A stretch of 36,507 nt of DNA from Bacillota bacterium (GTDB lineage: Bacteria; Bacillota_I; Bacilli_A; Acholeplasmatales; Acholeplasmataceae). Under the pieces are notes generated by a model, which did no database searches, had not been told where the DNA came from, and saw only the letters and a program-made list of their open reading frames with translations. Below, one piece after another: positions 1 to 32,811 of the stretch. The stretch lies in contig JAHIRQ010000123.1 of assembly GCA_018818645.1 (NCBI GenBank), positions 1-36,507 of the forward strand, read 5' to 3'. How positions within the stretch are numbered: position 1 is the stretch's first letter; the number at the start of each line of letters is the position of its first letter. The position numbers and the translations under genes are program-made.

Positions 1-3000
1 CACTTCTAGATATAACTCTTGATTGGTTATTTGAATACGTAGCACTCGCCCAACCAATCTTCGTATACTCACGACCTTCATAGCTAACTTCGGTTCTATT
101 TAATGTTTTTTGATAAGTTGTTCTAGTCCATTGATCGGTTCCACTATTGTATGCATAAGCATATTTTTGTGAGGTAATCGTGATATTTCTTTGTCTTCTA
201 GTTAAAGCAGGATTATTGTTATTACGATAAAAATATGTGTAACCAGTAAAAACTGCTTGTGTTGTATCATTTTTTCTTGCACTATAATAGACTGAATTTG
301 AGAAATCGAAATAGGAGACGGAAGATGTGTAATTATAAACTTGGTCAAGACGACCAATAAGGTCAACATTTGGGTCCATGTTTACAATAAAGTTAAATGT
401 CGAATTTGAATTATTATTTCCGTACATGATTTGGTTTTGAGCGCGTTGCAGACGACCAAAAATCCCACCGAAACCACGTTTATTTTCAGGGAAAAGTCTA
501 AGATCACTTCGTGTTATTGGAAATATAAAAGTACTGTCAACTGCATAAAAACCATCTCTAATTGTCTCATAATCCCAAATGTCGACTTGATTGAAATTAT
601 AGTATCCATCGCCTGCTGAACCTCGATCAAAAGCTCTGACACGACCATAATTAATCGCAGTATCAATCTTCACATATTCAGTAGTCAAAACAAAGGTTGC
701 ACCAGCAATACCACCAGCTACATCTGTTGAACTGATTTCACCATGATTTAACATACGTCTCATAATGGATAGTCCATACCCAATGACTCCACCAGCTGAT
801 GCATTGATACCTGGACGTTCGCCTGTTGATTCTCTTGTGCGTACTACTGTAGTTGAATACCAATCCACGGGTAATGTAGAGTCATATCTAATATTTGAGA
901 CTGATGCATTGACATTATCACTTGAGTACTCAGATATTGTAATGGTTATAGCAGAAATATTTCCATAATTAATCGAATTGGTAAGAATTGAATCTCGAAT
1001 GTTATTATTACTCGATGTATAGAAGAGTTCGATATTGCCAGTTTCAAGTTCAATAAAAGTTGCAGATGCTAAAATCCCTCCAGCTCTTGTGAAGTTTTTA
1101 GATTTTGCGATAATCATTCCTTTATTTGCGGTATCATATATTCTTGATCTACTGCTTAAAACAGCTCCTGCTATTCCTCCTAAGACGATACCATATCGAT
1201 ATTTAAGCGAGCGTCCACCTGTAGTAGCTAAAGTTGAAAAAGTTACATTGGATGTGTCTACATTACTTAAATTCTCAAATCTTAAATCTCCAAGGTTTGC
1301 AGTATCTTGAATATCACCATCATTAAATGTAGCAATTCCACCACCAAATACATTTGCATGACCAACAATTCCATAAATAGAAGACGTATATGTAGACGTA
1401 ATAATTGCACTATTGATTGAATTGATAATACCAATGGTTGCTTTAGGCATTGCTAAATTACCATTTGGATCCATATTTCCAGACCAGTTGTAATTGACAA
1501 ATCCACCAACATAGATATTATTTCGTTCTGAACGATTGATTGTATTCGATGTAATTCCTGCTACAGTAATCTCACCATTCACTAAACTATTTTTAATATA
1601 TCTACCATTGGTTAAGTTTTTTGTTATACCTGATACAAATAGCTCTTTATTGAATCCAGCAGTTTGCATCAAAACATTTGATACTCGAATCACTCCATCG
1701 TAAGATACATTTAAATAATCTATATTTTCAGACATTGAAATACCTGCAATATTTTGAGTTGCAGACATGGTTTGATTTTGATAGATTATATCTCCTTTGT
1801 TTTCTACGAAACGTAACATTGAAGATGCATTTGCTGTTGAATGATAAACTCCTGAATAATCATAAGAGCCGTAAATTTCGATATCTGCATTGTTTCTAGA
1901 TTGCGACAAAATCACTCCAGATCCAACGTTGTAGACGAGTGTTGTATAATTTAAATTATTAAAGTTTCCAGTAACTGCACCAGTCCCTTGATTGACTGTA
2001 TAATAACGAAGCGTTCCTGTACTTTCATTGAATAAATGAATAAATTCTGTTTCTACGCTATGGTTTGATACTAAAATACTAGAAGCGTTGACAATATTGG
2101 TTCCTCGAGTTAAGACATCGATAATCCCTTTATTGATAAATTGACCAAATGTTAGATTCATCTGGTAAGCTATTCCACTACTCATGCCGATGACTCCACC
2201 TACATAAAGTGTTTCAACACCTGCAGATTTGAGTTCACCAGTATATAATGTACCTTCATTAGTCAGTAAACCTAGGACATGATTTGAAAGCTCAGTATTT
2301 GTAACTTTACCTATTACACCGCCCATATATAAAGTAGGTGCACTTGATACTGTCATTGATGTTGAAGTTGTTCCTAAAGCTAAAATGTCAACCTTATTAT
2401 AAATATCAGTTAAGATGAGTTGGTTTTCTCCTGTACTACCGACTACTCCTCCGAAATGATAGCTTGGATTGATCAAAATATCAGTTCGATAAACATGGTC
2501 AGTATTTGGAATAATTTCGCCTTCCACATAAATTCCTGATATCATTCCACTTGCTCTACCAACTAAACCACCGACATGCATTACACCTAGAGTATCATGT
2601 CCAAGATCAATTTCAACATCTGCTAAGACATTTCTAATGATTCCAGAAGTGAAATCTCCAGCTAGGATACCTGCATAAGTAGAAACACCTGCAAAATTAT
2701 TAGTTTCTGTTAAGGTTAGTTTTGAACTATAAAAGATTAGGTTATAAACTTGCCCAGCTAGGATACCAAACATACCTGCATAATAGTTTTGTTGAACCAT
2801 ACCATTGACGATGTCTAAGCCATAAATATAGACTTCATTATCGATACCACTAAATACACCTGTAAATTCGACTGTAGGTGTCGTATAAGAGTTTGGTGCA
2901 ACATTACTCATATCGATGTTATCTGTGACGACATAATTCATTTCACGATAAGGAGCTAGGTTTGATTCTCTTGTATAATTTAACATCTTAGAAAAGGCAA

Positions 3001-4267
3001 CTAAATCCAGTGCATTTTGAATCACATAATAAGTAGATAATGTTACCTTATCGGTTGGATTATCAGATAGGATAATATCTAGTGGAGTACTTACAAGATC
3101 TAGGCCTAGTGTTGTAGGATATTTAGCATAAGGGTTATTTTCAACAGGGTAAAAATACCATCCGCTTCCTAGGACAGCATTTGAATTTCTAAGTTGAGTG
3201 GTTGTCATGGAGGTTGCATATGAGTTTGGAGTCGTAATACTATATGAACTACCACTGATTGAAACTGTCTCTTGATAAAGAGTATCATCAAATGCTAAAT
3301 GATCATAAACTCCTGAAGTGTGATTGGTATATAATACAGGTTGTACTGTAAATCTTGAACCATAGGATGCATTCATAACAACTCTAGAAGCATAGTATGC
3401 ATCGGTAAATGTACCGTAGTTATCAAAGAGAATTCCAGCTGCTTGTCCAGCAGATGCAACCATACGAATACCGGATACTAAAGCCGTCGCGCGGTAATCA
3501 ATAACATAGATATGATTGACATTTCCTGACTCTCTATTTAGCCCAACGATGTTAGCTGCTTTATATAATGTTGAGCTTTCAAAGTTGAATTCATAGGTTG
3601 GATTGATTAAACCAAAGTTTTGAATAGTTCCTTCATTATATGCAAACATCGCATAATATTCAACATAAGATATTTCAGTTTCAAACTCAGTTCCTTCATA
3701 TAGAGATTCTGTTAGTAGACTGAATCCAGAAAAATATAGGTTTGTAATTTCAAATCCATTTCCATCAAATGTTCCTGTAAATGCTTGTGAATAATGGGTG
3801 GATTCAATAAAGAAATCATAGCCAATTGGATTAAACTGTTTGGATTTCATGACTGAATAATCGATATCTCTACCAAGCACATAATGAAGACTTAAAAGCT
3901 TACTAATCGCTGATTGAGTGAGCTTGGTTTCATATATACTATATTTAAGTTTATAAGATACATCTATTGAAAAACGGTAAAGTTCTTCTGCTGAATCAAA
4001 GCGAATGATTTTATCCCAAGTTCCTAGGTTTATGGCATCAATTTGAGGGGATGTTGTAGCAATCGTATTTCTAAATTGAGTGTAGGTGATATAAATATCA
4101 TCAGGAAGTGTTAAGTTTGGTAATTCTTGATAGCTATGATCTGTAAAAATTCCGTATTGATCTTGTGCAGTGGATGGAAAGCTCAGTTTGAGTAATTCAC
4201 TACCAAGCAATATGGAAAACATGGATAGAAAAATAAATATTACAATTTTCTTTGTTAGTTTTCTCAT
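1..4267 (-). CDS. Giant secreted GLUG-repeat surface protein (cluster A), 3' end cut by window edge
   Basis: The frame is open from an ATG at 4267 to position 1, about 1422 codons with no stop seen, so the C-terminus lies outside the window. The start overlaps the TGA of the upstream gene (ATGA) and has a GGGGAGG ribosome site in the end of that gene. It begins MRKLTKK followed by a hydrophobic segment, i.e. a signal peptide. Residues about 125-175 carry FTGTFDGNGFEITNLYF, the usual opening of a GLUG beta-solenoid. After that, GG(I/V/L)xG motifs (YMGGVIGK, HVGGLVGR, YVGGVIGM) alternate with NxGxI motifs. It is the paralogue of the 2329-aa protein at 14135-21124, which shares YVLGxDIDY and FDGxGFEITNLYF. 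Likely a cell-surface adhesin or fibre-associated protein; the ligand is unknown. It is the last visible gene of the riboswitch-controlled distal transcript. Confidence 0.88.
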   Translation of the reverse strand, partial: MRKLTKKIVIFIFLSMFSILLGSELLKLSFPSTAQDQYGIFTDHSYQELPNLTLPDDIYITYTQFRNTIATTSPQIDAINLGTWDKIIRFDSAEELYRFSIDVSYKLKYSIYETKLTQSAISKLLSLHYVLGRDIDYSVMKSKQFNPIGYDFFIESTHYSQAFTGTFDGNGFEITNLYFSGFSLLTESLYEGTEFETEISYVEYYAMFAYNEGTIQNFGLINPTYEFNFESSTLYKAANIVGLNRESGNVNHIYVIDYRATALVSGIRMVASAGQAAGILFDNYGTFTDAYYASRVVMNASYGSRFTVQPVLYTNHTSGVYDHLAFDDTLYQETVSISGSSYSITTPNSYATSMTTTQLRNSNAVLGSGWYFYPVENNPYAKYPTTLGLDLVSTPLDIILSDNPTDKVTLSTYYVIQNALDLVAFSKMLNYTRESNLAPYREMNYVVTDNIDMSNVAPNSYTTPTVEFTGVFSGIDNEVYIYGLDIVNGMVQQNYYAGMFGILAGQVYNLIFYSSKLTLTETNNFAGVSTYAGILAGDFTSGIIRNVLADVEIDLGHDTLGVMHVGGLVGRASGMISGIYVEGEIIPNTDHVYRTDILINPSYHFGGVVGSTGENQLILTDIYNKVDILALGTTSTSMTVSSAPTLYMGGVIGKVTNTELSNHVLGLLTNEGTLYTGELKSAGVETLYVGGVIGMSSGIAYQMNLTFGQFINKGIIDVLTRGTNIVNASSILVSNHSVETEFIHLFNESTGTLRYYTVNQGTGAVTGNFNNLNYTTLVYNVGSGVILSQSRNNADIEIYGSYDYSGVYHSTANASSMLRFVENKGDIIYQNQTMSATQNIAGISMSENIDYLNVSYDGVIRVSNVLMQTAGFNKELFVSGITKNLTNGRYIKNSLVNGEITVAGITSNTINRSERNNIYVGGFVNYNWSGNMDPNGNLAMPKATIGIINSINSAIITSTYTSSIYGIVGHANVFGGGIATFNDGDIQDTANLGDLRFENLSNVDTSNVTFSTLATTGGRSLKYRYGIVLGGIAGAVLSSRSRIYDTANKGMIIAKSKNFTRAGGILASATFIELETGNIELFYTSSNNNIRDSILTNSINYGNISAITITISEYSSDNVNASVSNIRYDSTLPVDWYSTTVVRTRESTGERPGINASAGGVIGYGLSIMRRMLNHGEISSTDVAGGIAGATFVLTTEYVKIDTAINYGRVRAFDRGSAGDGYYNFNQVDIWDYETIRDGFYAVDSTFIFPITRSDLRLFPENKRGFGGIFGRLQRAQNQIMYGNNNSNSTFNFIVNMDPNVDLIGRLDQVYNYTSSVSYFDFSNSVYYSARKNDTTQAVFTGYTYFYRNNNNPALTRRQRNITITSQKYAYAYNSGTDQWTRTTYQKTLNRTEVSYEGREYTKIGWASATYSNNQSRVISRS

Positions 4268-5040
4268 GACCAAGTACCTCCCCATGGTGGAGTAGGTAAT
4301 TGCCAATTATATAAAGGTGCATTGTTTCCTGCTTGAATTGCTTCTACTAGAATTGCGAGCTGCAAAGTATAACCAAATGACTTGGTTTTAAACTCTAATC
4401 CATCATATTCCTCAATAAAGGATAAAGTTAACTGAGAAGAATCCATGTCACGTTCAATCAACATTGGATAATAATAGAATCCATCATTTAGTTTATTATC
4501 ATACCAATGGTCGATACGCTCAACAACATCACTAGATGTAATACCACCAAGTGCAACTTCGGCATCATATAAATCTTGATAGGACACATCATTAACTAAC
4601 CATTCTCTTGAAAATGCATAATTTATGGGTTGGTCTACAATTGAAACTTCCCCTTTATTACCTTCGAAATCAATGGTTGCTAAAGTGAGTGCATCAATGA
4701 TTGATACTCTTAAATAAGTGTCTACTGTGCTGTTAACATGGATATCAATTCTTAAGTTCTCGATATAATCATCTGCTTCAAAATCTGTAACATTGATTTG
4801 AAATACTCCTGATTTTACCATGGTAGAAATACCAGTATCAATACTAAAGTCTTCAGGTTCTAGCATGATACCATCTAGATATACCGTGTAAGAAATATCT
4901 ACCTTTGCTGCTGTAGCAATAAAAGAGTCTGTTCTATTCACTAAAACAAACCATGCGTAGGTTAAAGAGCTTAAAACAGTCAGCAACAAAAAAGCTGTAC
5001 TAATTACTAAGTATCTATACTTTTTTGTCAACTGTAGCAT
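4264..5040 (-). CDS. Small exported SipW-signal protein (cluster A minor subunit)
   Basis: 258 aa. The N-terminus has a basic patch and one hydrophobic segment (about residues 9-32) ending LTYAWFVLVN, the AWF box typical of SipW-dependent signal peptides. The rest has no membrane segment and reads as a beta-rich extracellular domain. The C-terminus has an IQAGN...YNW pattern matching the end of the 21137-21805 product (IQANRYVELWG), so I pair these two as paralogues. An AAGGAG site lies 6 nt before the ATG. Its stop codon overlaps the start of the GLUG gene, suggesting translational coupling. Likely a minor or adaptor subunit linking fibre and GLUG protein, by position only. Confidence 0.82.
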   Translation of the reverse strand: MLQLTKKYRYLVISTAFLLLTVLSSLTYAWFVLVNRTDSFIATAAKVDISYTVYLDGIMLEPEDFSIDTGISTMVKSGVFQINVTDFEADDYIENLRIDIHVNSTVDTYLRVSIIDALTLATIDFEGNKGEVSIVDQPINYAFSREWLVNDVSYQDLYDAEVALGGITSSDVVERIDHWYDNKLNDGFYYYPMLIERDMDSSQLTLSFIEEYDGLEFKTKSFGYTLQLAILVEAIQAGNNAPLYNWQLPTPPWGGTWS

Positions 5041-5060: not shown

Positions 5061-5783
5061 TTATTCATTAATAAGTGTGTAGAGACCATCAATTAAAAGC
5101 TCTCCATTTTGAAATCCTACTCCATCATCTGGAGTATAAGGATCTAATCCGATTGAAAACTCAATGACTACAATATGTTGTGAAGCTAAGCTAGCTTCTA
5201 ATACTGTAATATTGTTTTCAATCATTAAGTCTTCACCTTCAAGATAGTGATCAAACAAATTACTGATTCTACTTTGTTCTAGATTATAACCAAGATATTC
5301 AATAGTTACATCACTAATTTGCGCAATCATGATGTCTTGATCTAGATATGGGTTTTCTGCAATATATTCTGCATTGGATTCATACCATGTCAAGTTGATG
5401 ATTCCATTTTCTAGGAAAAAGAAATCTGTCAAATCATAATCAATTGATGTTTCCATAGCTCTAATGTTATACATGATGATATCAAGTGCCATATCATTAT
5501 CACCAATTGGATTTGAATTTTTAACAACGACTTTGATGTTTATAAAGTCACCAGGTAACATACTCGAAAGATATGCATTGATTTCAGCAGGTTCATCAAA
5601 GTTAGTATAGCCACCACCATTGATTCCATATTGAATATCTAGGTCTAATTCTCTACGAATGACATCACCTTGAATCGGTTGAATGTTACTTTCATTGGAT
5701 AAAGCAAACCAAGCATAAACAACTGCTGTAAACAGAATGATTGATGTGATTAACATGATGACTGATTTTAGCATTTGCTTCAT
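5061..5783 (-). CDS. Small exported SipW-signal protein, first gene after the third c-di-GMP riboswitch
   Basis: 240 aa from the ATG at 5783, which follows AAGGAG by 8 nt. A longer in-frame reading up to 5825 runs into the riboswitch terminator and is not credible. The N-terminal hydrophobic segment ends VVYAWFALSNESN, a SipW-type signal. The mature part is acidic and has no further membrane segment. The C-terminal pattern FSIGLDP...NGELLIDGLYTLIN resembles the end of the 22476-23240 product (FYFDP...NIFMNQVFTVEDIFMYISN), so they are probably paralogues. It heads a transcript with its own promoter and GEMM riboswitch, so its level should follow c-di-GMP. Confidence 0.83.
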   Translation of the reverse strand: MKQMLKSVIMLITSIILFTAVVYAWFALSNESNIQPIQGDVIRRELDLDIQYGINGGGYTNFDEPAEINAYLSSMLPGDFINIKVVVKNSNPIGDNDMALDIIMYNIRAMETSIDYDLTDFFFLENGIINLTWYESNAEYIAENPYLDQDIMIAQISDVTIEYLGYNLEQSRISNLFDHYLEGEDLMIENNITVLEASLASQHIVVIEFSIGLDPYTPDDGVGFQNGELLIDGLYTLINE

Positions 5784-5814
5784 GGTTTGGTCTCCTTTTC
5801 TTTGTTTTTTAAAC

Positions 5815-5851
5815 AAAAAAACCAACTGAACTCTTTTCAGAGTGCAACTGG
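5815..5851 (-). terminator. Intrinsic terminator, expression platform of riboswitch 3
   Basis: Arms 5839-5851 and 5822-5834 form a 13-position stem with one mismatch and two G-U pairs, loop GAAA, followed by seven T on the minus strand (5821-5815). The 5' arm starts at the conserved C of GUAGC in the aptamer. Because no separate terminator follows the upstream sipW-like gene, this hairpin may also stop or gate readthrough from the proximal cluster A transcript. Confidence 0.88.
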
Positions 5852-5910
5852 CTACCTTAAGAAGGCCCTATAGCTTTGCGTCACTAGGTTACCCTAGTTT
5901 TGCCCAAATT
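5815..5910 (-). promoter_or_regulatory. c-di-GMP-I (GEMM) riboswitch no. 3, before the distal cluster A genes
   Basis: On the minus strand the leader shows the GEMM core in order. GGGCAAAAC (from 5905) is followed by a CUAGG/CCUAG stem with a GNRA-type loop, then GACGCAAAGCUA, GGGCCU and AAGGUAGCC (ending about 5850). A guanine sits where I place Vc2 G20, which fits c-di-GMP rather than the cGAMP-binding variant. The aptamer's 3' end (GUAGCC) overlaps the 5' arm of a terminator at 5815-5851, so ligand-bound aptamer and terminator should exclude each other. I infer an ON switch. Sequence recognition is strong; direction of control is inferred. Confidence 0.93.
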
Positions 5911-5946
5911 TAAATATATATTATTATAATATATAACTACGATTTA

Positions 5947-5975
5947 ATTATACTGCTTTTTTTATTTCTTGTCAA
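5947..5975 (-). promoter_or_regulatory. Consensus housekeeping-sigma promoter for the distal cluster A transcript
   Basis: TTGACA (5975-5970) and TATAAT (5952-5947) are both perfect and separated by exactly 17 nt. The -35 box lies inside the last codons of the 5962-6648 gene. Transcription would begin near 5940, about 30 nt before the GEMM aptamer. Confidence 0.88.
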
Positions 5976-6648
5976 TGAAATCGTCTGGATTTGACTTCAT
6001 TTTTTCTTGTTCTTCTCTTAAAATCTCTTGATAGAGTTTTTCCTTCTCTAAAGCCTTTAAGTCCTCTAGATTCTTATCAAATTCAAGCTTCAATTTCTCT
6101 TCTTTATCATGCTTGACTGTCTTAATAATATGAAGAGTTTCTGTGATCACCATAACTACCAATACAAGACTCAAAATTAAGAAAATAACGTTTCTAGAAT
6201 TTGCTGCTAAACTTGCGATTGGCTTTAAAAAAGTAATCTTTCCACTCATGGTTCCTTGATAGTTTTCTTCTGTGACTGGGTTTGTATCAACCGATAAATT
6301 ATTATCACCTTGTGTCTCAAAACCACCATCTAGATGAGGTCCTACAACTCTATGAATAACTAAGATATCTATTCCTTGATATTCGCTTTGGAAAACAATG
6401 ACATCACCAATTTCGATATCTTCAAAACTAGATTTTTTAATAATTGCGATATCATATACATCCAGTGAATCTGGAGCATCACCTATCATAGACTCAGATG
6501 GTACAATCGAGAATGAATAACCAAAAATATAGAGTGGTTCGTTGTTCCTCATTGCAGCAGTTCCAATAAACATAATGCCAATAGAGAATAAGAAGATTAA
6601 AATTGCTAATGTTGTAACGGTTATTGATATGATTTTCTTCAAATTCAT
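5962..6648 (-). CDS. sipW: SipW-type (ER-type, S26B) signal peptidase, second copy in cluster A
   Basis: 228 aa. It removes signal peptides of SipW-dependent proteins at the outer membrane face. Membrane segment about residues 8-30; catalytic Ser53 in SESM; His99 in VIHRV, where bacterial-type peptidases have Lys, so it is the Ser/His ER-type; GDNN at 114-117; second membrane segment about 153-177; then a lysine/glutamate-rich cytosolic tail to 228. It follows the coiled-coil gene by 17 nt. It is more divergent from the other two SipW-like proteins here than they are from each other, so it may serve different substrates, perhaps the distal subunits. The start has a GGAAG ribosome site close to the ATG. 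Confidence 0.88.
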   Translation of the reverse strand: MNLKKIISITVTTLAILIFLFSIGIMFIGTAAMRNNEPLYIFGYSFSIVPSESMIGDAPDSLDVYDIAIIKKSSFEDIEIGDVIVFQSEYQGIDILVIHRVVGPHLDGGFETQGDNNLSVDTNPVTEENYQGTMSGKITFLKPIASLAANSRNVIFLILSLVLVVMVITETLHIIKTVKHDKEEKLKLEFDKNLEDLKALEKEKLYQEILREEQEKMKSNPDDFIDKK

Positions 6649-6665: not shown

Positions 6666-8540
6666 TTATTCTTCAGGACTTGATTTTTCTTTTTTCACTT
6701 TTTTAATCTTTAATTCTGCTTGAACTCTTGCTTTTTGTTTTTCTTTTTGAATACGTTCTTTCGATGCTTTTTCAAGCTTCAATTGCTCTTCTTTATAGCG
6801 TTTCTTTTCTGCTCTAATCTTTGCTTTTGCAAGCTTTTCGTATTTTTCCTTTTCCAAACGTTGTTTTGTTTTCAACTTTCTAATTTCTGCGTTATACTGA
6901 ATAGTTGCTTTCTTCTTTTCGAGCTCGATAATCTTCTTTTCTTCAGCTTTAATACGTTTTTCTTCAGCTTTAATTCTTTCATTTATATCTCTAGCTTCAT
7001 CAGTGATGATTCGTTTTTGCTCACTTACGAATTCTAGGTAACCAGACAAGGTTTCTTGATTCTTATCGAGATTCACTCTTTCAAGTTTAATGCGTTCTTC
7101 TATCGCTTGCTTCTTCGCTTCATCAATTGCTCTCTTCTTAAGTCCCTTAGAGATTTCTTTATTGATTCTTTCTATCTCTTTTAACATTCTTTTCTCTAAA
7201 CGAATTGAGTTATTGTAGTCAACTTCTTTAGTCTCACGAATAATTCTAGCAATTCTTGCTTTATCCTTTGCTTTCAGTAGTTCTGCATCTAAGTCCTGCT
7301 TAACCATTCTAGAAAAGAATATATCATCCGCGTCATCATCATCATTTAAATCAAAATAGTCCTGGAATAAAGTGTTTGTGATTGCAATCGTATCACGAAG
7401 TGCTTTTCTTAAGGCTACATCATAACTTGAGGATTCATCTCTGAACTTTTCTAGTTTTTCATCAAATGCTTTTTTGTTTTGATCTAAGAAATACTGATTC
7501 ATTTGTGTATCTTCTAATATAAATGGATCTGGATTCTTCATAATATCTGATAAACTCTTCTTTAAGAATTTAGGAGACTTCTTTTTGTATTCAGAAACAT
7601 CTAGATACTGATAATGATCTTCTAATGCTTTTTGATTTGCATATACAGTTGTAAAGGCTGTAAGTGCACTTTGATACACATTTCTTAAATAGTATCTATC
7701 AAATGTTAAGTTCTTCTCTGTTACGTTTACATCATAGTTTAAGGTATTATATTTGTCTAAATATAACCATAGATTGTAACAGTTTTGATAGTCGATATTT
7801 TTCAATAGGATGGACGTCTTCATAATCGGTGGAATGACTGGTTTTGCGTTCTTTAATTCCTCCATAAATGGAGAAACACGAATTCCATTAACTTTTTTGA
7901 GTAAGTTCTGAATTCGATTCAGTAATTCGTGATTATAATGACCAACCTCATCGTTTTCTAGGTCTTCTATAAATTTCATATCGATATCTAGATCAACTTT
8001 TGTTTCTCTAATATCGAAGGTTGATGTCAGTTTAAATTGCTTTGTTTGAAAGGATTCAACATTGTTTTTAACAAGTTCATGTCTATTATTGACAAAATCA
8101 AACAAGCGATTGACTAATGTTTTTATAAATCTATTTTCATAGATTGCATATTCTATCTCAGCTTGTGTAGTTAAAATCTTCTTAGGAATGACTTGACCAT
8201 TTCTAATTTCTTTGATCAAATGTGTATTCGCAGCTAAATGTCTGATTGAATCACTATTCGTTTTCTTTGCTTTCTCGATCGCCACGACTTCTTGAAGATA
8301 TTTCAATCCTGACTTAGGATCTTTAGTGATTTTATCAAGACTTGGGAAATACGATTCAATCGTACCCATCCATTCCTCATGGAATGTTTTCGTTTCGGAT
8401 ACAGTCTTTTGAAATAAGGTGTTCTCACCAGATAGAAATGCAGTATAAAAGTGATTTGGAAACTCGTCTTCTTTTTCAAGTTCGTAAAATGCATCATTTA
8501 GTTGTTGATGAAATTTTACCAAGTCACTTGTTTTTTTCAT
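6666..8540 (-). CDS. Cytosolic coiled-coil protein with an McrC/DUF2357-like ENRF motif
   Basis: 624 aa with no signal or membrane segment. Residues 1 to about 430 look helical and globular, with PKKILTTQAEIEYAIYENRF at about 119-138. That 'ENRF-K' patch preceded by a short Pro-Lys stretch resembles the DUF2357/McrC-type partner proteins of McrB-like NTPases; this is my reading of a short motif only. Residues about 430-615 are an almost continuous Lys/Glu/Arg coiled coil. I see no PD-(D/E)xK nuclease signature. It follows the McrB-like AAA+ gene by 12 nt with an AGGAG site, so partnership with that NTPase is plausible. There is no counterpart in cluster B. It could also be a scaffold between the NTPase and the cytosolic tails of the peptidases. 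Confidence 0.7.
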   Translation of the reverse strand: MKKTSDLVKFHQQLNDAFYELEKEDEFPNHFYTAFLSGENTLFQKTVSETKTFHEEWMGTIESYFPSLDKITKDPKSGLKYLQEVVAIEKAKKTNSDSIRHLAANTHLIKEIRNGQVIPKKILTTQAEIEYAIYENRFIKTLVNRLFDFVNNRHELVKNNVESFQTKQFKLTSTFDIRETKVDLDIDMKFIEDLENDEVGHYNHELLNRIQNLLKKVNGIRVSPFMEELKNAKPVIPPIMKTSILLKNIDYQNCYNLWLYLDKYNTLNYDVNVTEKNLTFDRYYLRNVYQSALTAFTTVYANQKALEDHYQYLDVSEYKKKSPKFLKKSLSDIMKNPDPFILEDTQMNQYFLDQNKKAFDEKLEKFRDESSSYDVALRKALRDTIAITNTLFQDYFDLNDDDDADDIFFSRMVKQDLDAELLKAKDKARIARIIRETKEVDYNNSIRLEKRMLKEIERINKEISKGLKKRAIDEAKKQAIEERIKLERVNLDKNQETLSGYLEFVSEQKRIITDEARDINERIKAEEKRIKAEEKKIIELEKKKATIQYNAEIRKLKTKQRLEKEKYEKLAKAKIRAEKKRYKEEQLKLEKASKERIQKEKQKARVQAELKIKKVKKEKSSPEE

Positions 8541-8552
8541 ACTTTCTCCTAC

Positions 8553-10097
8553 TTAGAACTGTCTCTTGATTGAGTTTAGATAATCTTGACATTCAACAAA
8601 CACATTTTTACCAAACAAACGATCAAGCAATACAGAAAGTTCATTGATTTCATCTTGCAAGAATGGTAAGTTTAAGCTTTCAAACTTTCTAAAAATCTTT
8701 CTCGCAACCATATAATCTAAAGCTTCATATTCAGAGTTTCCACATGCTACATAAACTGGAACGAACGCTCTAATTTGCTTCATGATACGGTTACCGAATG
8801 TTACCTTAAGGTTCTTAGTGATAAATGCATCTAGTTTTTCTAGATTTTCAATCGCTTTTAATGAAATCGAGTGATCTTTATTTGCTTGTCTAAATAATTC
8901 GACTAAATAATCATAGCTTAAATTGACACCTTCAGTATCTGGAGCATCGATATAAGCGGATTTTGGGTTAATAATAATTGGTGTAGCACGGTCATAAACC
9001 TTATCCGTAATTGTAAATGTTGAGTCATCCTTATTCGCTGTGCCGACAAACCAAACATTTTGTGGTAGTAATATTTTACCGTTTTGTAAATGTTTAGGGT
9101 CTCCAGGTTGGTTATCAGGTACGATATCAATTAACCATGCATCAGCATCAGGCATTTCAAGTAATGATAAAAGTTCAGCAAAGTAGTATTCTACACGTGC
9201 CAAGTTCATTTCATCTAATACGATAAGACATACATCGTCGCGATAAGTCGTCTTGTAGACTGCTTTTAAAAAGTCAGTTTCGTTAAACTTCTTTGTAAAT
9301 TCATTTAAATAACCAATCATTTCGGCACGATCTCTCCATGAGGGTTGTACAGCAATGATTTCAGAATCATTATTGAAAAATTTTCCCATCGCATAAGGTA
9401 GTGATGTTTTCCCTGTACCAGAGATACCTTCTAGAATCATCGTCTTGGATGCAGCCATACCAGCAAAAAATGCTGATATAATCTTTTTATCATAGAATAA
9501 TCCAAGTCTTGATGCGGAGAAATTGATAAATCTTTTTACCAATTCATTTAAGTTAATCATATCCTCATCTTTCATGTGGATCTGAGTCACCATGTTTTCG
9601 TACTCTTTATCAACTTGAAGCAATTTCACAAATCGTGAAGGACCAGTATACTCATCATCTGAATCATCTGCACTTGATTGACCATAATTTCTAGACTCAT
9701 CCTCTGGAGTAACACCAAGGTTAGATACTTTAAGTGCTAGAATCTTATTTTTTTCATCAATCAGTTCTACTGTCTTCTGGTTTAGAAACGAAATCTCTTC
9801 TAGAAGCTCATCCTTTTCGATTTCAATTTTTGCAAATTTAACATATCGTCTTATGACTTGATAAAGTTTTAAAACAACGAATACAATAAAAGCCAAGTTA
9901 ATGACTAAAACAAGAAAAGCCATTACCCAATCTAGTAATGTGAAGTTCGCGCTTTTGTCGATGAAGCTATTTATATATTCTATAACTCCACTAAATAATA
10001 ATTCGGCAAATGCCCCAAAAATTTGATTGAAGAATTGGCCGATATTAGTAAAAAAATTTCTAATGAAGTCAATATAGTAACGAGCAAACTCTACCAT
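8553..10097 (-). CDS. Membrane-anchored McrB-like AAA+ NTPase (cluster A)
   Basis: 514 aa. An amphipathic N-terminus is followed by one membrane segment (about 54-78), a coiled coil (about 90-124), an acidic linker (128-152), and an AAA_5/McrB-like domain. Walker A is GISGTGKT (224-231), Walker B LIVLDEMNLARVEYYF (291-306), sensor/NxxD motif GTANKDD (352-358, N355 and D358), then DRA at 369-371. DEMNLARVEYYF and an NxxD motif are typical of the McrB branch, which often prefers GTP. No DNA-binding or nuclease domain is visible, and the membrane anchor is unusual for restriction. It sits between sipW and the coiled-coil gene. Its paralogue at 23260-24786 is very similar throughout the NTPase domain. 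AAGGAG precedes the start by 5 nt. Confidence 0.9.
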   Translation of the reverse strand: MVEFARYYIDFIRNFFTNIGQFFNQIFGAFAELLFSGVIEYINSFIDKSANFTLLDWVMAFLVLVINLAFIVFVVLKLYQVIRRYVKFAKIEIEKDELLEEISFLNQKTVELIDEKNKILALKVSNLGVTPEDESRNYGQSSADDSDDEYTGPSRFVKLLQVDKEYENMVTQIHMKDEDMINLNELVKRFINFSASRLGLFYDKKIISAFFAGMAASKTMILEGISGTGKTSLPYAMGKFFNNDSEIIAVQPSWRDRAEMIGYLNEFTKKFNETDFLKAVYKTTYRDDVCLIVLDEMNLARVEYYFAELLSLLEMPDADAWLIDIVPDNQPGDPKHLQNGKILLPQNVWFVGTANKDDSTFTITDKVYDRATPIIINPKSAYIDAPDTEGVNLSYDYLVELFRQANKDHSISLKAIENLEKLDAFITKNLKVTFGNRIMKQIRAFVPVYVACGNSEYEALDYMVARKIFRKFESLNLPFLQDEINELSVLLDRLFGKNVFVECQDYLNSIKRQF

Positions 10098-10124: not shown

Positions 10125-10844
10125 TTACTTTTCTTTGTCTTGACTTTCTTTCTTTAATTCTTCAAGTACTTGTTGTCTAATCTTTTCTTTTTCAGCTTCA
10201 ACATCAAAAACAGTTTGTTCTTTGTTGATCTCAAACTTCTTTTCAAGTTTTTCATTATTGAGCTTTATTACATTTTTAACGAGTAAAACCCCTTCAAACA
10301 CTAGAATAATAATAACTGGTAATATTACAAATAGTGCGAATCCAGAAGGCGTTTGTAAATACTTAAGTGTGTTACCAGCACCAACCCACTTCGATTGATA
10401 TTGAGCTAAAGCTTCATCAATATGAATTGGAGCATCATCAGGTGCACCAGCCTTATCACCCTTAGTAATAAGAAATGTTTCACCCTCAAGTGTTATAATC
10501 TCAGATATTCTATGTGTAATTAGTCCTTGAACACCTAATCCAGGTATTTCCATACTGAAATAAGTAACAATGTCTCCTACCTCTAATTCCAAGCGAGATT
10601 CATCATTTAAGATTTTTACAAATACGATATCATCAACTGTGAAGGAATCACTTTCTTCACCATCCATTGAATCTGTTAAAACGGTCGTGAAACCATTCCC
10701 AAAAATATTGGCTATATCATCTTTTTGCTTCAGCTGCATATTAGCAATTGAAAATGTAATGAGTAATACGATGACTGAATAAAATAAAACATTTAAAAAG
10801 ATTTTTCCAACCTTGATCACTGTTTGCTTTGTTTCTGGTTTCAT
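10125..10844 (-). CDS. sipW: SipW-type signal peptidase (cluster A, proximal)
   Basis: 239 aa. First membrane segment about 15-37; catalytic Ser59 in TDSMDG; His111 in ITHRIS replaces the Lys of bacterial-type enzymes; KGD at 128-130; second membrane segment about 166-189; charged cytosolic tail 191-239 predicted to be helical. It should cleave the AWF-type signals of the neighbouring subunits. Close paralogue of 24822-25511: same length to Ser59, same TPSGFALFVILPV-type second helix. It follows the major subunit gene across a structured 134-nt gap and precedes the McrB-like gene by 27 nt. Ribosome site GCGGGG. Confidence 0.9.
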   Translation of the reverse strand: MKPETKQTVIKVGKIFLNVLFYSVIVLLITFSIANMQLKQKDDIANIFGNGFTTVLTDSMDGEESDSFTVDDIVFVKILNDESRLELEVGDIVTYFSMEIPGLGVQGLITHRISEIITLEGETFLITKGDKAGAPDDAPIHIDEALAQYQSKWVGAGNTLKYLQTPSGFALFVILPVIIILVFEGVLLVKNVIKLNNEKLEKKFEINKEQTVFDVEAEKEKIRQQVLEELKKESQDKEK

Positions 10845-10978: not shown

Positions 10979-11884
10979 TTATGCAGCAAATCTTAATGAA
11001 GTTGTAATAACTCTACCAAGTAGTGAGTTGTATGCTTCTCCATCCCAACCTTCTAACCAAATACGTACAGTAACAACACCATAATATAGAGCTTCTGGCA
11101 TTACTGGATTCGTAACCATATCTAATACCTTAGTGTTAGAAATAGCGGTTACTGTTGATACTACTGTAACATCATCTGAACCTGTAGGAAGTGTATTGTT
11201 AACTTGATAGTAGTAATTTGTTGATCCATTTGCACCAATTCCACCATTTAAAAATGCTGTAGTTTCATTTGTATGTCCACCAAGAACTGTATTTCTAGCA
11301 GGTTCTGAAACTGGATTTTCATATGCTGTGGTAGCGTTTGAACCTCCAATGTTACCTGTTACTGAAACTCTAACTGCATCTGCAGCATTCACTGAGAATG
11401 AACTACCTGCAACTCTAGCATTACCAAGTGAATCAGTAAATGATACCCCAGTAATCCAGCTAGCAGTTGGACTTGATACAACAACTTGTGTCCAATTGAT
11501 TTCTGTTTCATTATCGGATCTGAAATGTAGAGGAATTTCTAAGTATCCATCAGTAACGCCAACACCTTCTAAATCAGTAAATGATACACCATTTGTTGAA
11601 CTTACATGAGTAAATTGGAATCCACCAGGATAAGCAGCATCGATAAAGTCATAAATGTCTTGAGTTGTAAGAACTGTCTTCCATTCTAATAAAACTGGAT
11701 CGCCAATACCAGGAGTTCCAATTGCAATTTCAATACCTGTATCTGCTACGATTTCAGCTTCAAATGGTTGAATGACTGAAGTATTCGTAAGCGTAAACCA
11801 CGCGAATGTTGTAGTCCCTAAAGCTACAACCGTAAGTACGACTGATAATACGGATAATACTAATTTTCTTGCTAGTTTGTTCAT
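10979..11884 (-). CDS. TasA/camelysin-like major fibre subunit candidate (cluster A)
   Basis: 301 aa. The signal region (about residues 8-36) ends LGTTTFAWFTLTNTS, a textbook SipW-dependent signal with likely cleavage near FAWF. The mature part is rich in Thr, Val, Gly, Asn and Ser with little Lys, as expected of an assembled extracellular subunit. The C-terminus has VRIWLEGWDGEAYNSLLG then an alternating beta strand, a motif shared with the other proximal proteins of both clusters. Paralogue: 25601-26563. The gene is preceded by a stable hairpin and a purine-rich leader with AAGGAG, and followed by a conserved RNA structure, both suggesting high expression. Homology to TasA is inferred from signal type and context, not from alignment. 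Confidence 0.85.
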   Translation of the reverse strand: MNKLARKLVLSVLSVVLTVVALGTTTFAWFTLTNTSVIQPFEAEIVADTGIEIAIGTPGIGDPVLLEWKTVLTTQDIYDFIDAAYPGGFQFTHVSSTNGVSFTDLEGVGVTDGYLEIPLHFRSDNETEINWTQVVVSSPTASWITGVSFTDSLGNARVAGSSFSVNAADAVRVSVTGNIGGSNATTAYENPVSEPARNTVLGGHTNETTAFLNGGIGANGSTNYYYQVNNTLPTGSDDVTVVSTVTAISNTKVLDMVTNPVMPEALYYGVVTVRIWLEGWDGEAYNSLLGRVITTSLRFAA

Positions 11885-11963: not shown

Positions 11964-12929
11964 TTACAAAGCTTTTCTAGCTGCTTTAAACTGTAGTTGG
12001 ATTTGCACGATATCTTTATCGATTGCATCAAATGCATCTGCATCCCATCCTTCTACCCAAATATTAATTCTAACTTTGCCTGCATAATATGTTTTGTCTT
12101 TTGAATCCTTAGTATCTGTTTCTTGAAGAGTTGCTACTAGTGAATCATTATCTAGTGCTTGATATGGGTTGTATGGATCCATTTCAGATAGTCTATAACT
12201 TGTTGGTGGATATGCAGTAGGTAAGTATTGATATATCAACGTTCTTTGGAAGAAATAACTGAATGCTCCAACCGGGGAACCATATCCTCTATCAGGATTT
12301 CCTGAAGGATCATAAATAAATGTTTTTAACTCATCAACTGCTCTTTGGTCATTTAGATTATTTTCATCTTGCAATTCTACGATTGATATTCTAATTGCAT
12401 CATGACCGTAATAAATTCCAATATCTCCAGCTTCTACTGTGTCTTCAATCATTGGTCCATTGAAGAATGTATGAGGTGATCGCCATGAGACTCCTTTTGA
12501 AACAAAGTAAGTACCATTTCTTTCATCTCCAAATTCCATTTCCTTTGAAACATCATTGACTAAGAAGATGTCATGTTCTGATTGAGAGGTTCTAATCCAT
12601 AAGTCGAATGATAGATAATGTTCATTTGCTATTGCCTCGCCAACTGGTCTAAGACCACCTGTTTGAAAGTTAATTCCATCAATTGATGTAACATCATATA
12701 ACCTTATACCATCAACTGAGCTTTCTAAAGGTGTAAAGGGTAATACATTGAAGTACTCAATACCATCAAATGATAATTCTAATTCATCACCACTGGATGC
12801 TGAAAATGTTAATCCATCAATGTTGTTAATTTCTGATAAGGATGTCCAAGCATATGTTACTGTTCCGAAAATTAAGCTAATTAATATAAAGGATAAAATC
12901 GAGATATGAATTTTTTTTAATTTTCTCAT
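11964..12929 (-). CDS. Exported SipW-signal protein, 321-aa family (cluster A)
   Basis: 321 aa, same length as its paralogue at 26635-27600. The signal (about residues 7-29) ends FGTVTYAWTSLSEINNI. Shared blocks with the paralogue include EHxxxLxNxVS, the YRLSEMDPxNPYQ block, ALDNDSLxAxLQET and the C-terminal VRINIWVEGWDADAFD. No second membrane segment. It is translated just after the 12939-13646 gene with a 9-nt gap and before the putative major subunit. Probably a minor fibre subunit or anchor; no enzymatic motif was recognised. Confidence 0.84.
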   Translation of the reverse strand: MRKLKKIHISILSFILISLIFGTVTYAWTSLSEINNIDGLTFSASSGDELELSFDGIEYFNVLPFTPLESSVDGIRLYDVTSIDGINFQTGGLRPVGEAIANEHYLSFDLWIRTSQSEHDIFLVNDVSKEMEFGDERNGTYFVSKGVSWRSPHTFFNGPMIEDTVEAGDIGIYYGHDAIRISIVELQDENNLNDQRAVDELKTFIYDPSGNPDRGYGSPVGAFSYFFQRTLIYQYLPTAYPPTSYRLSEMDPYNPYQALDNDSLVATLQETDTKDSKDKTYYAGKVRINIWVEGWDADAFDAIDKDIVQIQLQFKAARKAL

Positions 12930-12938
12930 TGTCCTGCC

Positions 12939-13646
12939 CTACTTACTGTCTCTAAGTATTGAGAAAACCATTTCCATCTTGATTGTTCCACCTAATAGTT
13001 CATCTGTTGTATCCGGATCATTTCCCTCAAGATAAATAATCACTGAGAATTTTTTGGTTTGCTGTGGTTTAAAATTGAGAATCTCTTTTCTCATCACTTC
13101 TCTGGATGTCCGGAAGTGCTCAGCAACTGGCATTGTAGAAGGATAGTTTGAGTTATTGGTTGGGTCTGCTTTCATATACATGGTTTCAACACCATCTTCT
13201 ATCACAATGACTCGAATACCTTCATCTAGACTATTCGTGAAATCAGTAATTCTGATGTAGTAATCTAAGTCTACTGCTTCAAATCCTTCGTTTCTCATAT
13301 AGAATGTGTATGCCACATATCCATGTACAGTATCAATGAAGTTTCCATCAGTTTCTTGTACTTCATCAAGTTTAATCCAAGAGTAAGTAATTTCTTTTGC
13401 ATTTTCAACAGGTTCACTCATTAATCTTACGTCTGTATATTCTTCTTTAAACTCTTCAGTAGACAATCTGATTTTTCTTTGTGCTGCATCAGGATCTATT
13501 GACATAATCATATTTCCTGCATTTTGTCCATAAAATGTAATGACACCGAATGTTAAGGAAAGCATACCAGTGATAATGATTCCTAAACTGAAGATTCGAT
13601 TTCTAATTTTAATTCGTCTCACTCCAAGAACTTTAGAAAGTCTCAT
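12939..13646 (-). CDS. Small exported/membrane protein, GQNAGN family, first gene of cluster A
   Basis: 235 aa from the third of three consecutive ATG codons (13646), 8 nt after AAGGAG; its paralogue starts MKLSKVL, matching MRLSKVL here. An in-frame extension upstream to 13772 is riboswitch sequence, not protein. One hydrophobic segment (about 19-40) is followed by TFYGQNAGNMIMSID instead of the AWF box, so processing may differ. The C-terminus YLEGNDPDTTDELLGGTIKM matches the EGxD...GG motif of other TasA-like proteins. It is the first gene after the tandem riboswitches. Likely a base or initiator subunit by position. Confidence 0.83.
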   Translation of the reverse strand: MRLSKVLGVRRIKIRNRIFSLGIIITGMLSLTFGVITFYGQNAGNMIMSIDPDAAQRKIRLSTEEFKEEYTDVRLMSEPVENAKEITYSWIKLDEVQETDGNFIDTVHGYVAYTFYMRNEGFEAVDLDYYIRITDFTNSLDEGIRVIVIEDGVETMYMKADPTNNSNYPSTMPVAEHFRTSREVMRKEILNFKPQQTKKFSVIIYLEGNDPDTTDELLGGTIKMEMVFSILRDSK

Positions 13647-13673: not shown

Positions 13674-13712
13674 TTGAAAATAAAAAGCCAGCGTCATCAA
13701 TGACAACTGGCT
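13674..13712 (-). terminator. Intrinsic terminator of riboswitch 2
   Basis: AGCCAG (13712-13707) pairs with CTGGCT (13691-13686), with an inner GTCAT/ATGAC stem, then TTTTTATTTT on the minus strand. It overlaps the aptamer's GUAGCC. Confidence 0.88.
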
Positions 13713-13773
13713 ACCTTTTAATAGGCCCTCTAGCTTTGCGTCCTTAGGTTCCCCTAAGTTTGCCTTTAACATT
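13674..13773 (-). promoter_or_regulatory. c-di-GMP-I (GEMM) riboswitch no. 2 (proximal of a tandem pair)
   Basis: Minus strand from 13773: AATGTTAAAGGCAAAC, a CUUAGG/CCUAAG stem with GGAA loop, GACGCAAAGCUA, GGGCCU and AAGGUAGCCAG (to 13707). These are the conserved blocks of the GEMM-I aptamer in order. A G at the Vc2 G20 position fits c-di-GMP. The 3' conserved bases double as the 5' arm of the terminator at 13674-13712, so I infer ligand-dependent antitermination. The first start codon of cluster A lies 28 nt downstream. Confidence 0.95.
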
Positions 13774-13798
13774 TTTTAATGCAAATTCTTACTACGGT

Positions 13799-13839
13799 TT
13801 AATAAAATAAAAAGCCGTCGTCATCAATGACAACTGGCT
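13799..13839 (-). terminator. Intrinsic terminator of riboswitch 1
   Basis: AGCC and GTTGTCAT (13839-13828) pair with ATGACGAC and GGCT (to 13813), with one unpaired A and one G-U pair, followed by TTTTTATTTTATT. It overlaps the aptamer's 3' conserved bases as in copies 2 and 3. Confidence 0.87.
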
Positions 13840-13900
13840 ACCTTTTAATAGGCCCTTTAGCTTTGCGTCCTTAGGTTCCCCTAAGTTTGCCTTTAACATT
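13799..13900 (-). promoter_or_regulatory. c-di-GMP-I (GEMM) riboswitch no. 1 (distal of a tandem pair)
   Basis: Nearly identical to riboswitch 2 and offset by 127 nt. It has the same AATGTTAAAGGCAAAC start at 13900, the same stems and the same GGTAGCCAG end. Differences I see are a G-to-A in the GCTA(G/A)AGGGCC segment and a changed terminator 3' arm. Each copy keeps its own terminator, so transcription must pass two checks before the first gene. The near identity indicates recent duplication or gene conversion. Confidence 0.95.
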
Positions 13901-13928
13901 TCGTATCTATATTTCTCGATACACCTGT

Positions 13929-13957
13929 ATTTTATTATAAGTTGTAAAGTTTGTCAA
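13929..13957 (-). promoter_or_regulatory. Promoter of cluster A
   Basis: TTGACA (13957-13952), 17-nt spacer, TAAAAT (13934-13929) on the minus strand. Transcription would start near 13922, about 22 nt before the first GEMM aptamer. A GTATC/GATAC inverted repeat lies between start point and aptamer. Confidence 0.82.
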
Positions 13958-14134: not shown

Positions 14135-17100
14135 TTATTCTGTTTCTAGAATTTCTACTATTTCTTGCTGCCCCCATTGATAGTCTTCAACGACTTCTAT
14201 AATCGTTAAGGTGACATAATACTTTCGTGGGAGTATTGAATTCTCTAGATAAAAAGCATTCCCAGTAATCGATACTTGTTGAACCTGCAGTTCATATCCA
14301 AACCCTTTTGGAAGATTTGCTGTTATCGTATAGGTTCCATAAGTTGTCGTTTGAAATTGATTGTTTGAATATAGCCCAGTCGTTTGATTGTAAGTAGAAA
14401 ATACAGCCATGGACAATATAGAATCAGTTACTGAACATGCTCCTAAGTAATCTTCACCAAGTTGGCATAGGCTAATACGAATAAACACATTGTCAAATAG
14501 AGTAGTCGTTTGATTCACAACTGTCAAATTAAATCTTATATTATTGGTAACATCCTGTACGGCAACATAATAATCTGTGTAATTGGCTGGATTTTGATCA
14601 TAGTCCATCGCGTACACACGATATAAAATAAAGTTGAAGGTGTCTCCAATTGGTGAGAAATCAGCAGTTAAATCCTCGGATTGATAGGAATAGCCTAATT
14701 CTGTGAAGTTTGTTACCTTTCTAACAATTGCTCCCTCTGGAAGAATAAAAACTGGTTGATAAACACTGGTGTTGGTCTGCTGAACTTGTCCAATGACCCA
14801 ATAACTTTGATAATCATCATGACCATTATAGAGAATTCCTTTCGTTGGTAATATGTTGATTGTTCTTTCGTTTGGTTGTTCTAAATAATGTTCATATAGA
14901 ACTGGTGTAATCTCTTGGTAATCCATAATGGTATTAAACCCAGCAAATACAGTTTCAGTAACAAAAAGTATATCATCAAGCAAACTGTTCTCGTTTTGAA
15001 CCTTTGTAAGTGATACGGTTTGGAAATCATAACTCCATGTTAAAACTTCATTCCAAATCATAACTTCTTGCGAGTAATTGAGCTGATAACTATAGAGTCC
15101 AAGAGGAATATCCTTGTTGAAATCTACTTCAAAACCAACGTTAGCGATTGAATCGATAAAGAAATCTACATCCTCTATTGCAGTCATTCCAGCTTCATCA
15201 GGGATAAATGAAGATTCAATCGTTAATAAAGTACTTGGATGAAAATACGTATTCGAGAAATCATGTTCAATACGTAAAGTCGGTTGATCTTCATAGCCTA
15301 TCATCAAGTTAGATAATGGTAAATCAAGTTCTCCACCATTCAAGTATGCAATCTTAACCTCATTTGTCATTTCATGTTCTAATAGATTGTGTGTGAAACT
15401 TGATAAGGTTCCATCTTCTGCCTGAAGATCATAAGTTACTACATACTGATGTCTATATAAATCGATCATCTCTATCGATAAGTTAATGGATAATAAGGTG
15501 GAAAATGGTGATATTTCCATTTGAGTTAAATAGGTTGGTAGATTGGTGCTAATCATATCGTAATTGATGTTACTTAATGTATCGATGTTACTGAAATTAA
15601 CAATTTGAGTATTCTCTTCTAGCTCTTGATAGTAAATGCCATAAGGTATCAACGATTGATATGTGTTCATTGTTGGTATAACCAATAAATCATTATGCGT
15701 AAATGATAAAACACTCGCTTCACTACTTTCTTCTTTTGAAAAATAAAGACGATAAGCTTCTCCACTTAATAGCGTAGTTTCCATATAGTAGTCACCACTT
15801 GGAAATATATCTGTAACCGTAAAATCAATTGTTACATGACCAACTCCCCAGCTACCAGTTAAATTATCAAATGAAGCATCTGTTTCAACAACTCCATTAT
15901 TTAATTCATAATAGGATGAATGTACTTTGACTCCAGTATGAATATTGTAAATAGATATACTAGGTATCAATTGATATAAGTCTGGTAAATTAAGAGTTTC
16001 ATAAGAGATTTGAAAGGTTCCAAGATCCTGATAATGATCATAATGTAATACCTCATTCGAAGTAATTTCATTGACTGTATAAAGAAGTGGCATTGCATCG
16101 ATTCCATTTGCTATTAAAGACTCAATTGATAAAAGCTCAATATCTGCAGTTCTAATAATTCTAAGGTCATAGTCTCTATAGGTCGAAGGATCAACTTCAC
16201 TATAGGACTCAGAATAGATACGAATACTTCCATAATGATCAGCAACACTATCAATATAGTTTCCTTGACTGTCATACATTGCATCATAGATACCAAAGCT
16301 TCTTGGAATAGAAGCCAACTCTATAGATGGAACACCTTGCTGATAAAATGATGCATTCATCGATATTGTATAGGAACCTTCATTTAAATTTGCTTTAAAA
16401 TAGGAACTTGATTCATCATAAACAACAATGTTACTGGTGACATCGGTTTGAATATAAGTCACATTCTCCATCGAAGGACCAACGTAACGATAGATTGGAT
16501 TTGGATATCCCGATAAAGTAAATCTTTCATATGCTGCATAACCAGGTGATGTTGTCTGATTTAATGTTGCACGGAAGCCAGTGGCTTGCCACCAGAAAAA
16601 TACATACGTATGTGGAGTATGCTTCATTAAGGGTGTAATTGTTGAATCTAGATCCACGTGTGTTAATGAATAGACTGGTGTATTTCGATTATAATAAGTT
16701 GCTGCTCCTGAATCGTTCGTTGTTACATCATAAATACCGGTTGTATGATATGGTCCGATTTCTACATAATCTAGACCATCCTTTTTGTAGTCGCCTACCC
16801 ATGTATATGTTTGTTCACCGGATAAGACAATGTCTGGAACCTTTCTACCTAAGCCCTCTGATACTTCAACAAAACTGTAAATATCCATCAAGGAAAAGGA
16901 TTGATTGTTTAAGATACTCGCATTGCTTGGTATATAATAGGTAATTAAAGCTCTCTTTTCATCAATAATTGGAGCTTTTAGCTTAAATCCGTCAGGAACT
17001 ATATTTCCTAACGCATCACTTTCTACGAGTTCTAAATCATAGATAGTTGAAGCAAATGAAGCCTTGATTTGTCTCATTTCAACAAATAAATGATAGCTTA

Positions 17101-24786: not shown

Positions 24787-24821
24787 GATAATCTCCTTCA
24801 AAAAGAATCACATCTACCTTA

Positions 24822-32641: not shown

Positions 32642-32669
32642 GAAGTTCCCTCTTTCATCCTTTACTACC

Positions 32670-32698
32670 ATTTTATGTGATATTTGATAATATTTCAA
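32670..32698 (-). promoter_or_regulatory. Promoter of the GGDEF-EAL operon
   Basis: TTGAAA (32698-32693), 17-nt spacer, TAAAAT (32675-32670) on the minus strand. Transcription would start near 32663, giving a leader of about 22 nt to the GTG start. This placement is the main reason for choosing the shorter protein. Confidence 0.75.
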
Positions 32699-32811
32699 CC
32701 ACAAACCCGAATTACACTTCATAATTGACTTTATAAGTCATGTATTTACCAATGACATTTTAAATTAACATGAATGCCTAACATATATACTTAAAATCAT
32801 TATACATTATT

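Follow-up and report, generated by a model that had tools for sequence, protein, structure and literature searches.

The gene at 8553..10097, on the minus strand of the window (the whole stretch of DNA that was analyzed, 36,507 nt long), probably codes for the NTPase of a membrane-anchored, nuclease-free module of the McrBC type, which serves a surface-fibre export machine induced by c-di-GMP. Restriction is what McrBC proteins are known for. A broader reading, towards which we still lean with rather less assurance, is that this McrBC-type pair has left antiviral defence: Acting from the cytosol, it would drive or time SipW cleavage and fibre assembly through the cytosolic tails of the peptidases, switched by c-di-GMP, and would occur widely in Bacillota, wall-less ones included. 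Every gene of interest lies on the minus strand of the window, and the host genome has a size of 2.23 Mb.

The NTPase, here called B1, has 514 amino acids from an ATG start. It contains a hydrophobic segment at about residues 49–83 (one transmembrane helix), a coiled-coil-like stretch at about 90–123 and an AAA domain at about 200–480, with a Walker A motif GISGTGKT, a Walker B motif VLDEMNLARVEYYF and then GTANKDDS. An earlier note on this DNA had described this combination of one membrane helix, coiled coil and AAA domain, a description that stands, with the Pfam AAA_5 match itself (20.5 bits) below the cut-off of 22. Conservation extends over the whole protein, from Acholeplasmatales to Clostridia, with a mean column identity of 62% in an alignment of 17 sequences (A3), in which the coiled-coil-like stretch is kept and GISGTGKT, VLDEMN and NKDD are invariant columns. 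All 103 distinct full-length homologues have the membrane segment, and with this full-length conservation the features of B1 are not due to chance. Walker A, Walker B and N-x-D are retained in all aligned full-length copies of the B1 type, so hydrolysis seems to be needed.

The AAA domain is nearer to McrB than to MoxR/RavA, as judged from sequence comparison. Three results lead to this assignment: the match to the PADLOC family PDC-M26A (E=4e-39), a PDB profile search with a profile of 17 homologues, which matched McrB alone (6hz4, E=1e-4), and HHalign against E. coli McrB (P=95.2, E=2.8e-8). MoxR and RavA belong to the same AAA_5-like superfamily, but HHalign of B against RavA is not significant (P=3.1), and membership in that family was discarded on this basis. 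The McrB branch had thus been correctly recognized in the earlier note, which had called for the comparison; its NxxD motif was a misreading of NKDD. In the alignment the motif reads N-x-D-[D/E], its D at +2 being kept in all intact copies of B across contexts, which by sequence assigns these proteins to the NxD branch described by Bell et al. (PMC11090510). In a tree of AAA domains, the copies associated with SipW, those next to cadherin-like proteins and those in B-B-C-B arrays (both described below) form one group (support 1.00), apart from soluble McrBs. No Pfam match to a modified-base-binding domain is found on B1, whose N-terminus is occupied by the membrane helix and the coiled coil.

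The gene that follows B1 had escaped the earlier note, which placed the NTPase between sipW and fibre-related genes: The sipW side holds, the other side does not. Starting 12 bp downstream of B1, gene C (6666..8540, minus strand) codes for a protein of 624 amino acids with no membrane helix and with a DUF2357 domain of the McrC N-terminal type (Pfam PF09823, E=9.1e-12). Its AlphaFold model (31 sequences, pLDDT 77.8) has the DUF2357 part followed by a 200-residue helix at 417–619. The best PDB match of this model in Foldseek is McrC (6hz4_M), a weak one (E=0.024, prob 0.75), and direct HHalign of C against E. coli McrC is not significant; the protein resembles McrC by its Pfam domain and by this weak top match. 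Neither Pfam nor the model reveals a nuclease on C: There is no Pfam nuclease match, and the model has no alpha/beta nuclease core, with one strand after the DUF2357 part. The earlier statement that no nuclease or modified-base-binding domain is visible was correct for B1 and extends to its partner, as far as nucleases are concerned. Among related loci, the partner of B in L142 gives a weak PDDEXK_7 match below the cut-off (E=6e-4), and a family scan gives no such match in L144. Of 101 relatives, 58 have a full-length B and all of these have DUF2357, which is absent from all 29 that lack B altogether.

Two SipW/ER-type signal peptidases flank B1 and C. S1 (10125..10844, minus strand, NCBIfam TIGR02228, 63.7 bits) has a charged cytosolic tail, VEAEKEKIRQQVLEELKKE, and ends 27 bp ahead of B1. 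The second, S2 (5962..6648, minus strand, 55.6 bits, tail ALEKEKLYQEILREEQEKM), was not included in the earlier note and begins 17 bp after C. Exported proteins with TFA-WF-like signal peptides are coded on both sides, also on the minus strand: T1 (10979..11884), with a TTFA-WF type signal peptide and predicted to be beta-rich, T2 (11964..12929), with a TYAWT type signal peptide, and T3 (12939..13646), exported or membrane-anchored, on one side; T4 (5061..5825, VYAWF) and T5 (4264..5040, TYAWF) on the other. The listed reading frame of T3 reaches 13772, but the stretch upstream is a riboswitch, so we place its likely start at about 13646 (MRLSKVLGV..., as in the paralogue at 27611-28321). Beyond these genes lie two giant repeat surface proteins on the minus strand, one GLUG-like with 2329 amino acids and no Pfam match (14135..21124), the other partial at the window edge and 31% identical to it (2..4306).

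The signal peptides of these substrates fit the SipW class, with an aromatic residue at P2', as in the cut site of TasA. SipW cuts the TasA signal peptide at such a site (PMC10269814), and the TasA subunits are joined extracellularly by donor-strand exchange (PMC9674648); the BsaA filaments of Clostridium perfringens also need SipW (PMC7395162). The likeness of the neighbours to GLUG and TasA-like proteins, pointed out in the earlier note, stands as a resemblance, while homology finds no significant Pfam match. Searches of Pfam, NCBIfam and PDB profiles and a fold search give no significant match of the exported proteins to TasA: The best value against Peptidase_M73 is E=0.11, and the fold search returns weak pilin-like and archaeal-filament matches, none significant. 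Homology to TasA is thus not supported by these searches. Neither the giant repeat protein nor the exported proteins of the window have a significant Pfam match of any kind. In alignments of the exported proteins (A2 and A4, for example 10979-11884) we have also observed a shared C-terminal motif, (I/V)W-x-EG-x-D, which is near-invariant in A2.

The window contains a second cassette (21137-28321, minus strand), also new with respect to the earlier note, which repeats the layout of the first with 48–73% identity for T1–T3, SipW and B. Its NTPase, B2 (23260..24801), is 73% identical to B1 and has intact catalytic motifs. It is preceded by the peptidase S3 (24822..25511, TIGR02228, 70.7 bits, tail TEIEAIRKEILRELELTK), so that three genes of the window are above the cut-off for the SipW-type ER peptidase. 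The paralogues of T1 (25601-26563), T2 (26635-27624) and T3 (27611-28321) are 56%, 53% and 48% identical to those of cassette 1, and three more exported proteins are coded at 21137-21805, 21807-22454 and 22476-23255. There is no DUF2357 partner beside B2, and cassette 2 lacks a second SipW as well. In the genus of the window, the listed genomes have a single DUF2357 gene each, against two or three B genes in most of them, so the second B may use the single C in trans.

Three c-di-GMP-I riboswitches are found in the window, all on the minus strand and well above the gathering threshold of 35 bits for RF01051. Aptamers 1 (13826..13901, 63.7 bits) and 2 (13699..13774, 62.8 bits) are in tandem at the head of the cassette-1 operon; aptamer 3 (5840..5914, 55.8 bits), which overlaps a terminator, is inside the operon, between S2 and T4. 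Aptamers 1 and 2 are each followed by a terminator-like hairpin, at 13838-13804 (-12.6 kcal/mol, z -4.7) and 13710-13677 (-9.2 kcal/mol, z -3.5). Promoter-like sites, which are consensus matches only, lie just upstream of the tandem pair (13929..13957, 11/12, minus strand) and of aptamer 3 (5947..5975, 12/12, minus strand). The tandem riboswitches (13677-13901) are direct repeats of 98 nt with 97% identity, which points to a recent duplication.

Riboswitches of this type also reach the Rfam gathering level in Acholeplasma granularum, A. oculi, zrk7, Paracholeplasma (P. vituli) and two Clostridia loci. With a survey model built from 14 aptamers (those of the window and these relatives), a riboswitch is found upstream of 37 of the 44 C-containing cassettes versus one of the 14 C-less cassettes with enough upstream sequence, all sequences being distinct. 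The same model gives 92 matches in 1.20 Mb, against two in the 0.63 Mb of sequence from loci in other contexts. The C-less cassette 2 stands outside riboswitch control. In three near-closed genomes, every c-di-GMP-I riboswitch detected with the Rfam model is at the B-C cassette (G042 1/1, G032 2/2, G074 3/3); the proportions are 3/5 in G000 and 5/8 in G033. Other readable riboswitches (L193 G000:C129; L196 G033:C4; L195 G033:C3) mostly precede genes for AYW-type exported proteins and clusters with stand-alone SipW. It may be that c-di-GMP controls most SipW-type export in these bacteria. Of 59 aptamers, 45 have a 3' strand which can also pair as the 5' arm of a hairpin resembling a terminator, compared with 11% at random positions. 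From this overlap c-di-GMP is predicted to switch the operon on.

Enzymes which may set the level of this signal are close at hand. An intact gene for a GGDEF-EAL protein with an N-terminal membrane helix (28611..30047, minus strand, EAL E=5.7e-56, GGDEF E=1.8e-15) neighbours the cassettes. Next to it, a membrane protein of 892 amino acids (30044..32722, minus strand) is apparently a second GGDEF-EAL protein, as read from its sequence; its clostridial counterpart (L118:3382-5562) has an EAL domain with E=3.6e-58.

We have surveyed loci from Acholeplasma, Peloplasma, Paracholeplasma, Mycoplasmatota zrk strains, other Bacilli and Clostridia MAGs. The recurrent order is [GGDEF-EAL pair]-T-T-T-S-B-C-S-T-T-giant, and the core of it, with surface proteins on both sides of SipW-B-C-SipW, recurs in Acholeplasmatales, other Bacilli and Clostridia; the S-B-C-S order is likewise found in further families of the class. 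Since similarity to the query was the basis on which loci were collected, the proportions describe near relatives of B1: Among 77 distinct B genes with enough flanking sequence, 46 have C, SipW and exported proteins, 14 have SipW and exported proteins without C, two have C and SipW only, one has exported proteins only, and the remainder fall into other layouts, with surface proteins or of the B-B-C-B type. In this survey, which the earlier note had suggested, B loci are tied to SipW and surface genes and not to nucleases. That the NTPase was recruited, as proposed, to a SipW-type operon for surface export is well supported by the S-B-C-S order, the c-di-GMP-I riboswitches and the SipW tails beside B.

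Other layouts extend this picture. Six loci (L038, L040, L042, L044, L046, L186) contain a giant surface protein, a degenerate GGDEF-EAL gene, B and C, without SipW and without riboswitch; the giant protein of L038 has 13 cadherin-like repeats. Five loci (L047, L049, L051, L145, L190) are B-B-C-B arrays, with one AAA copy degenerate in several of them, and their neighbours include a protein with a transglutaminase domain (L047, E=1.5e-18) and large surface proteins that are YDG-like. In a single genome (L137, G094:C7, 3937-17951), B (9275-10888, minus strand) and a C-like gene (7920-9272, minus strand) are found among type IV prepilin-like reading frames, suggesting that the NTPase pair can work for exported subunits of another kind as well. 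Related B-C pairs also adjoin ABC permeases and lipoprotein-like genes, as read from sequence. A further type (L133-L136, L141, L146) has a B of about 900 amino acids with a long membrane N-terminus and a C-like protein of about 520 amino acids, which is zinc-ribbon-like in L134; no surface genes are recognized in these loci.

The NTPase pair might share an operon with the export genes for transcription only and have an unrelated membrane function. We consider this very improbable: The gene order is kept over a wide taxonomic range, the long SipW tails are restricted to B-linked enzymes, and related pairs adjoin surface genes even where SipW is absent (cadherin-like proteins, B-B-C-B with transglutaminase, prepilin-like proteins).

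The tails of the peptidases deserve separate attention. The charged cytosolic tail has a median length of 42.5 amino acids in SipW-type enzymes near B (n=158) and 11.5 in stand-alone ones (n=48), which come largely from the same genomes (rank test p=1e-19, ignoring the relatedness of the sequences). The helix motif EKEKIRxQILEEL, chosen after the tails had been inspected, is present in 69 of 86 upstream and 28 of 72 downstream enzymes, and in none of the 48 stand-alone ones. The SM...HR signature of the peptidase is found in 139 of 156 B-linked copies, and several others retain S-M...H without R. Taken with the coiled coils of B and C, these tails point to tethering.

Tethering would also be expected if B and C were a membrane scaffold or switch, in which the state of the NTPase determines the place or time of SipW activity, for example by bringing the peptidases together at one pole, and does no mechanical work on subunits. 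This reading, rather unlikely in our opinion, is favoured by the intact B of the C-less second cassette and by the SipW/TasA systems of B. subtilis and C. perfringens, which form fibres with no McrBC genes or NTPase of this kind reported in the operon (PMC9674648, PMC7395162); a motor is therefore not needed in general. The constant presence of Walker A, Walker B and N-x-D speaks against it, but separates a motor from a scaffold poorly. For the module itself, we infer that it organizes or powers export, in the role of a motor.

A third alternative is that B and C form a membrane-bound anti-phage system of the CoCoNuT or type IV restriction kind, sensing injected nucleic acid, with the surface genes as shields or decoys. 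In Bell et al., these systems are grouped next to CoCoNuTs (PMC11090510), and on plasmids the closest relatives without a membrane segment are operons of B and DUF2357 of the CoCoNuT type. The AAA domain also matches PDC-M26A, a candidate defence family in PADLOC, but every NxD McrB tested does so, surface-linked ones included, and we have dropped this match as evidence of defence. C has no nuclease fold and no nuclease is recognized adjoining it; among the scanned neighbours in the window and in the conserved gene layout, neither HEPN nor any other nuclease was recognized near B. Not one of 72,556 plasmids carries a near-full-length copy of B, partial relatives being the only matches, and just two of 50,697 phage records match B at all. 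The family is, moreover, kept at high identity across species and under c-di-GMP riboswitches. Defence is thus improbable, and we have rejected an active defence reading on account of the nuclease-free C, the lack of near-full-length plasmid copies and the two phage matches.

Returning to the preferred reading of a fibre-export module, its operation might be as follows. GGDEF/EAL enzymes would set the level of c-di-GMP; at a high level, the ligand would hold the 3' strand of the aptamer, the overlapping terminator would be blocked and the operon read. Subunits would leave through Sec, and the SipW enzymes of the operon would cleave them. B, bound to NTP, would form a ring on the cytosolic face of the membrane and C would be its activating stalk, as McrC is for McrB; McrC is known to activate the McrB ring (summarized in PMC11090510). 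Peptidases and ring may be kept in contact by the coiled coil of C and by C-terminal helices in the SipW tails, and cycles of NTP would either time the cleavage of subunits and their hand-over to the growing fibre, or gather export sites.

A module of this kind is already known. Contrary to the earlier note, which knew of no described role of this type, Bell et al. 2024 named the NxD McrB systems associated with signal peptidases, fused to membrane and coiled-coil segments, CoCoPALM (pilus assembly linked), in one paragraph which gives no mechanism and promises a later paper (PMC11090510). The window shares with CoCoPALM the NxD McrB-type NTPase fused to a membrane helix and coiled coil, the DUF2357 partner with a coiled coil (the 200-residue helix of the C model) and neighbours of the signal peptidase family, here SipW-type on both sides and recurring. 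According to Bell et al., the fused domain is homologous to FtsB (PMC11090510); Pfam DivIC/FtsB gives no match to B1 at E<0.05. Their paper does not mention c-di-GMP, GGDEF or riboswitches (PMC11090510). In the open literature, which leaves aside subscription journals and most preprints, the name CoCoPALM for such systems appears in Bell et al. and its preprint only, and nothing relevant is found on SipW joined to McrB, SipW in Acholeplasma or PDC-M26. The c-di-GMP-I control, the SipW tails and the C-less duplicate cassettes are new with respect to Bell et al. and were not found described; the cadherin-like, prepilin and B-B-C-B layouts are additions to their account.

Other known systems share parts of this organization. 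E. coli McrBC has the McrB-type AAA+ core and the same order of B and then the DUF2357 partner, but it has NxxD instead of NxD, a methylcytosine-binding domain where the membrane anchor is found here, and a PD-(D/E)xK nuclease on the partner where our predicted model has a long helix. CoCoNuT types I-III (Bell et al. 2024) share the NxD NTPase with coiled coils and the DUF2357 partner, but no HEPN or PD-(D/E)xK nuclease or RNA-binding domain is recognized in the window, where the NTPase is membrane anchored and in a context of surface export. SipW-TasA-TapA of B. subtilis and SipW-BsaA of C. perfringens also combine an ER-type signal peptidase with dedicated exported substrates; they differ in having no reported McrBC genes, and the substrates in the window have no detectable homology to TasA.

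If our reading is correct, a motor of defence has been turned to export, which would be a use of McrBC outside defence, in building the cell surface. It would provide a candidate NTPase for SipW-type fibre systems, for which we have found no energy source or cytosolic machinery described. It would also give an output of c-di-GMP in Mollicutes, where this signal seems to have been little studied; in several of these genomes, the operon is the only target of c-di-GMP-I riboswitches. Cultured relatives, such as Acholeplasma granularum, A. oculi, Peloplasma and Paracholeplasma, make the export reading testable.
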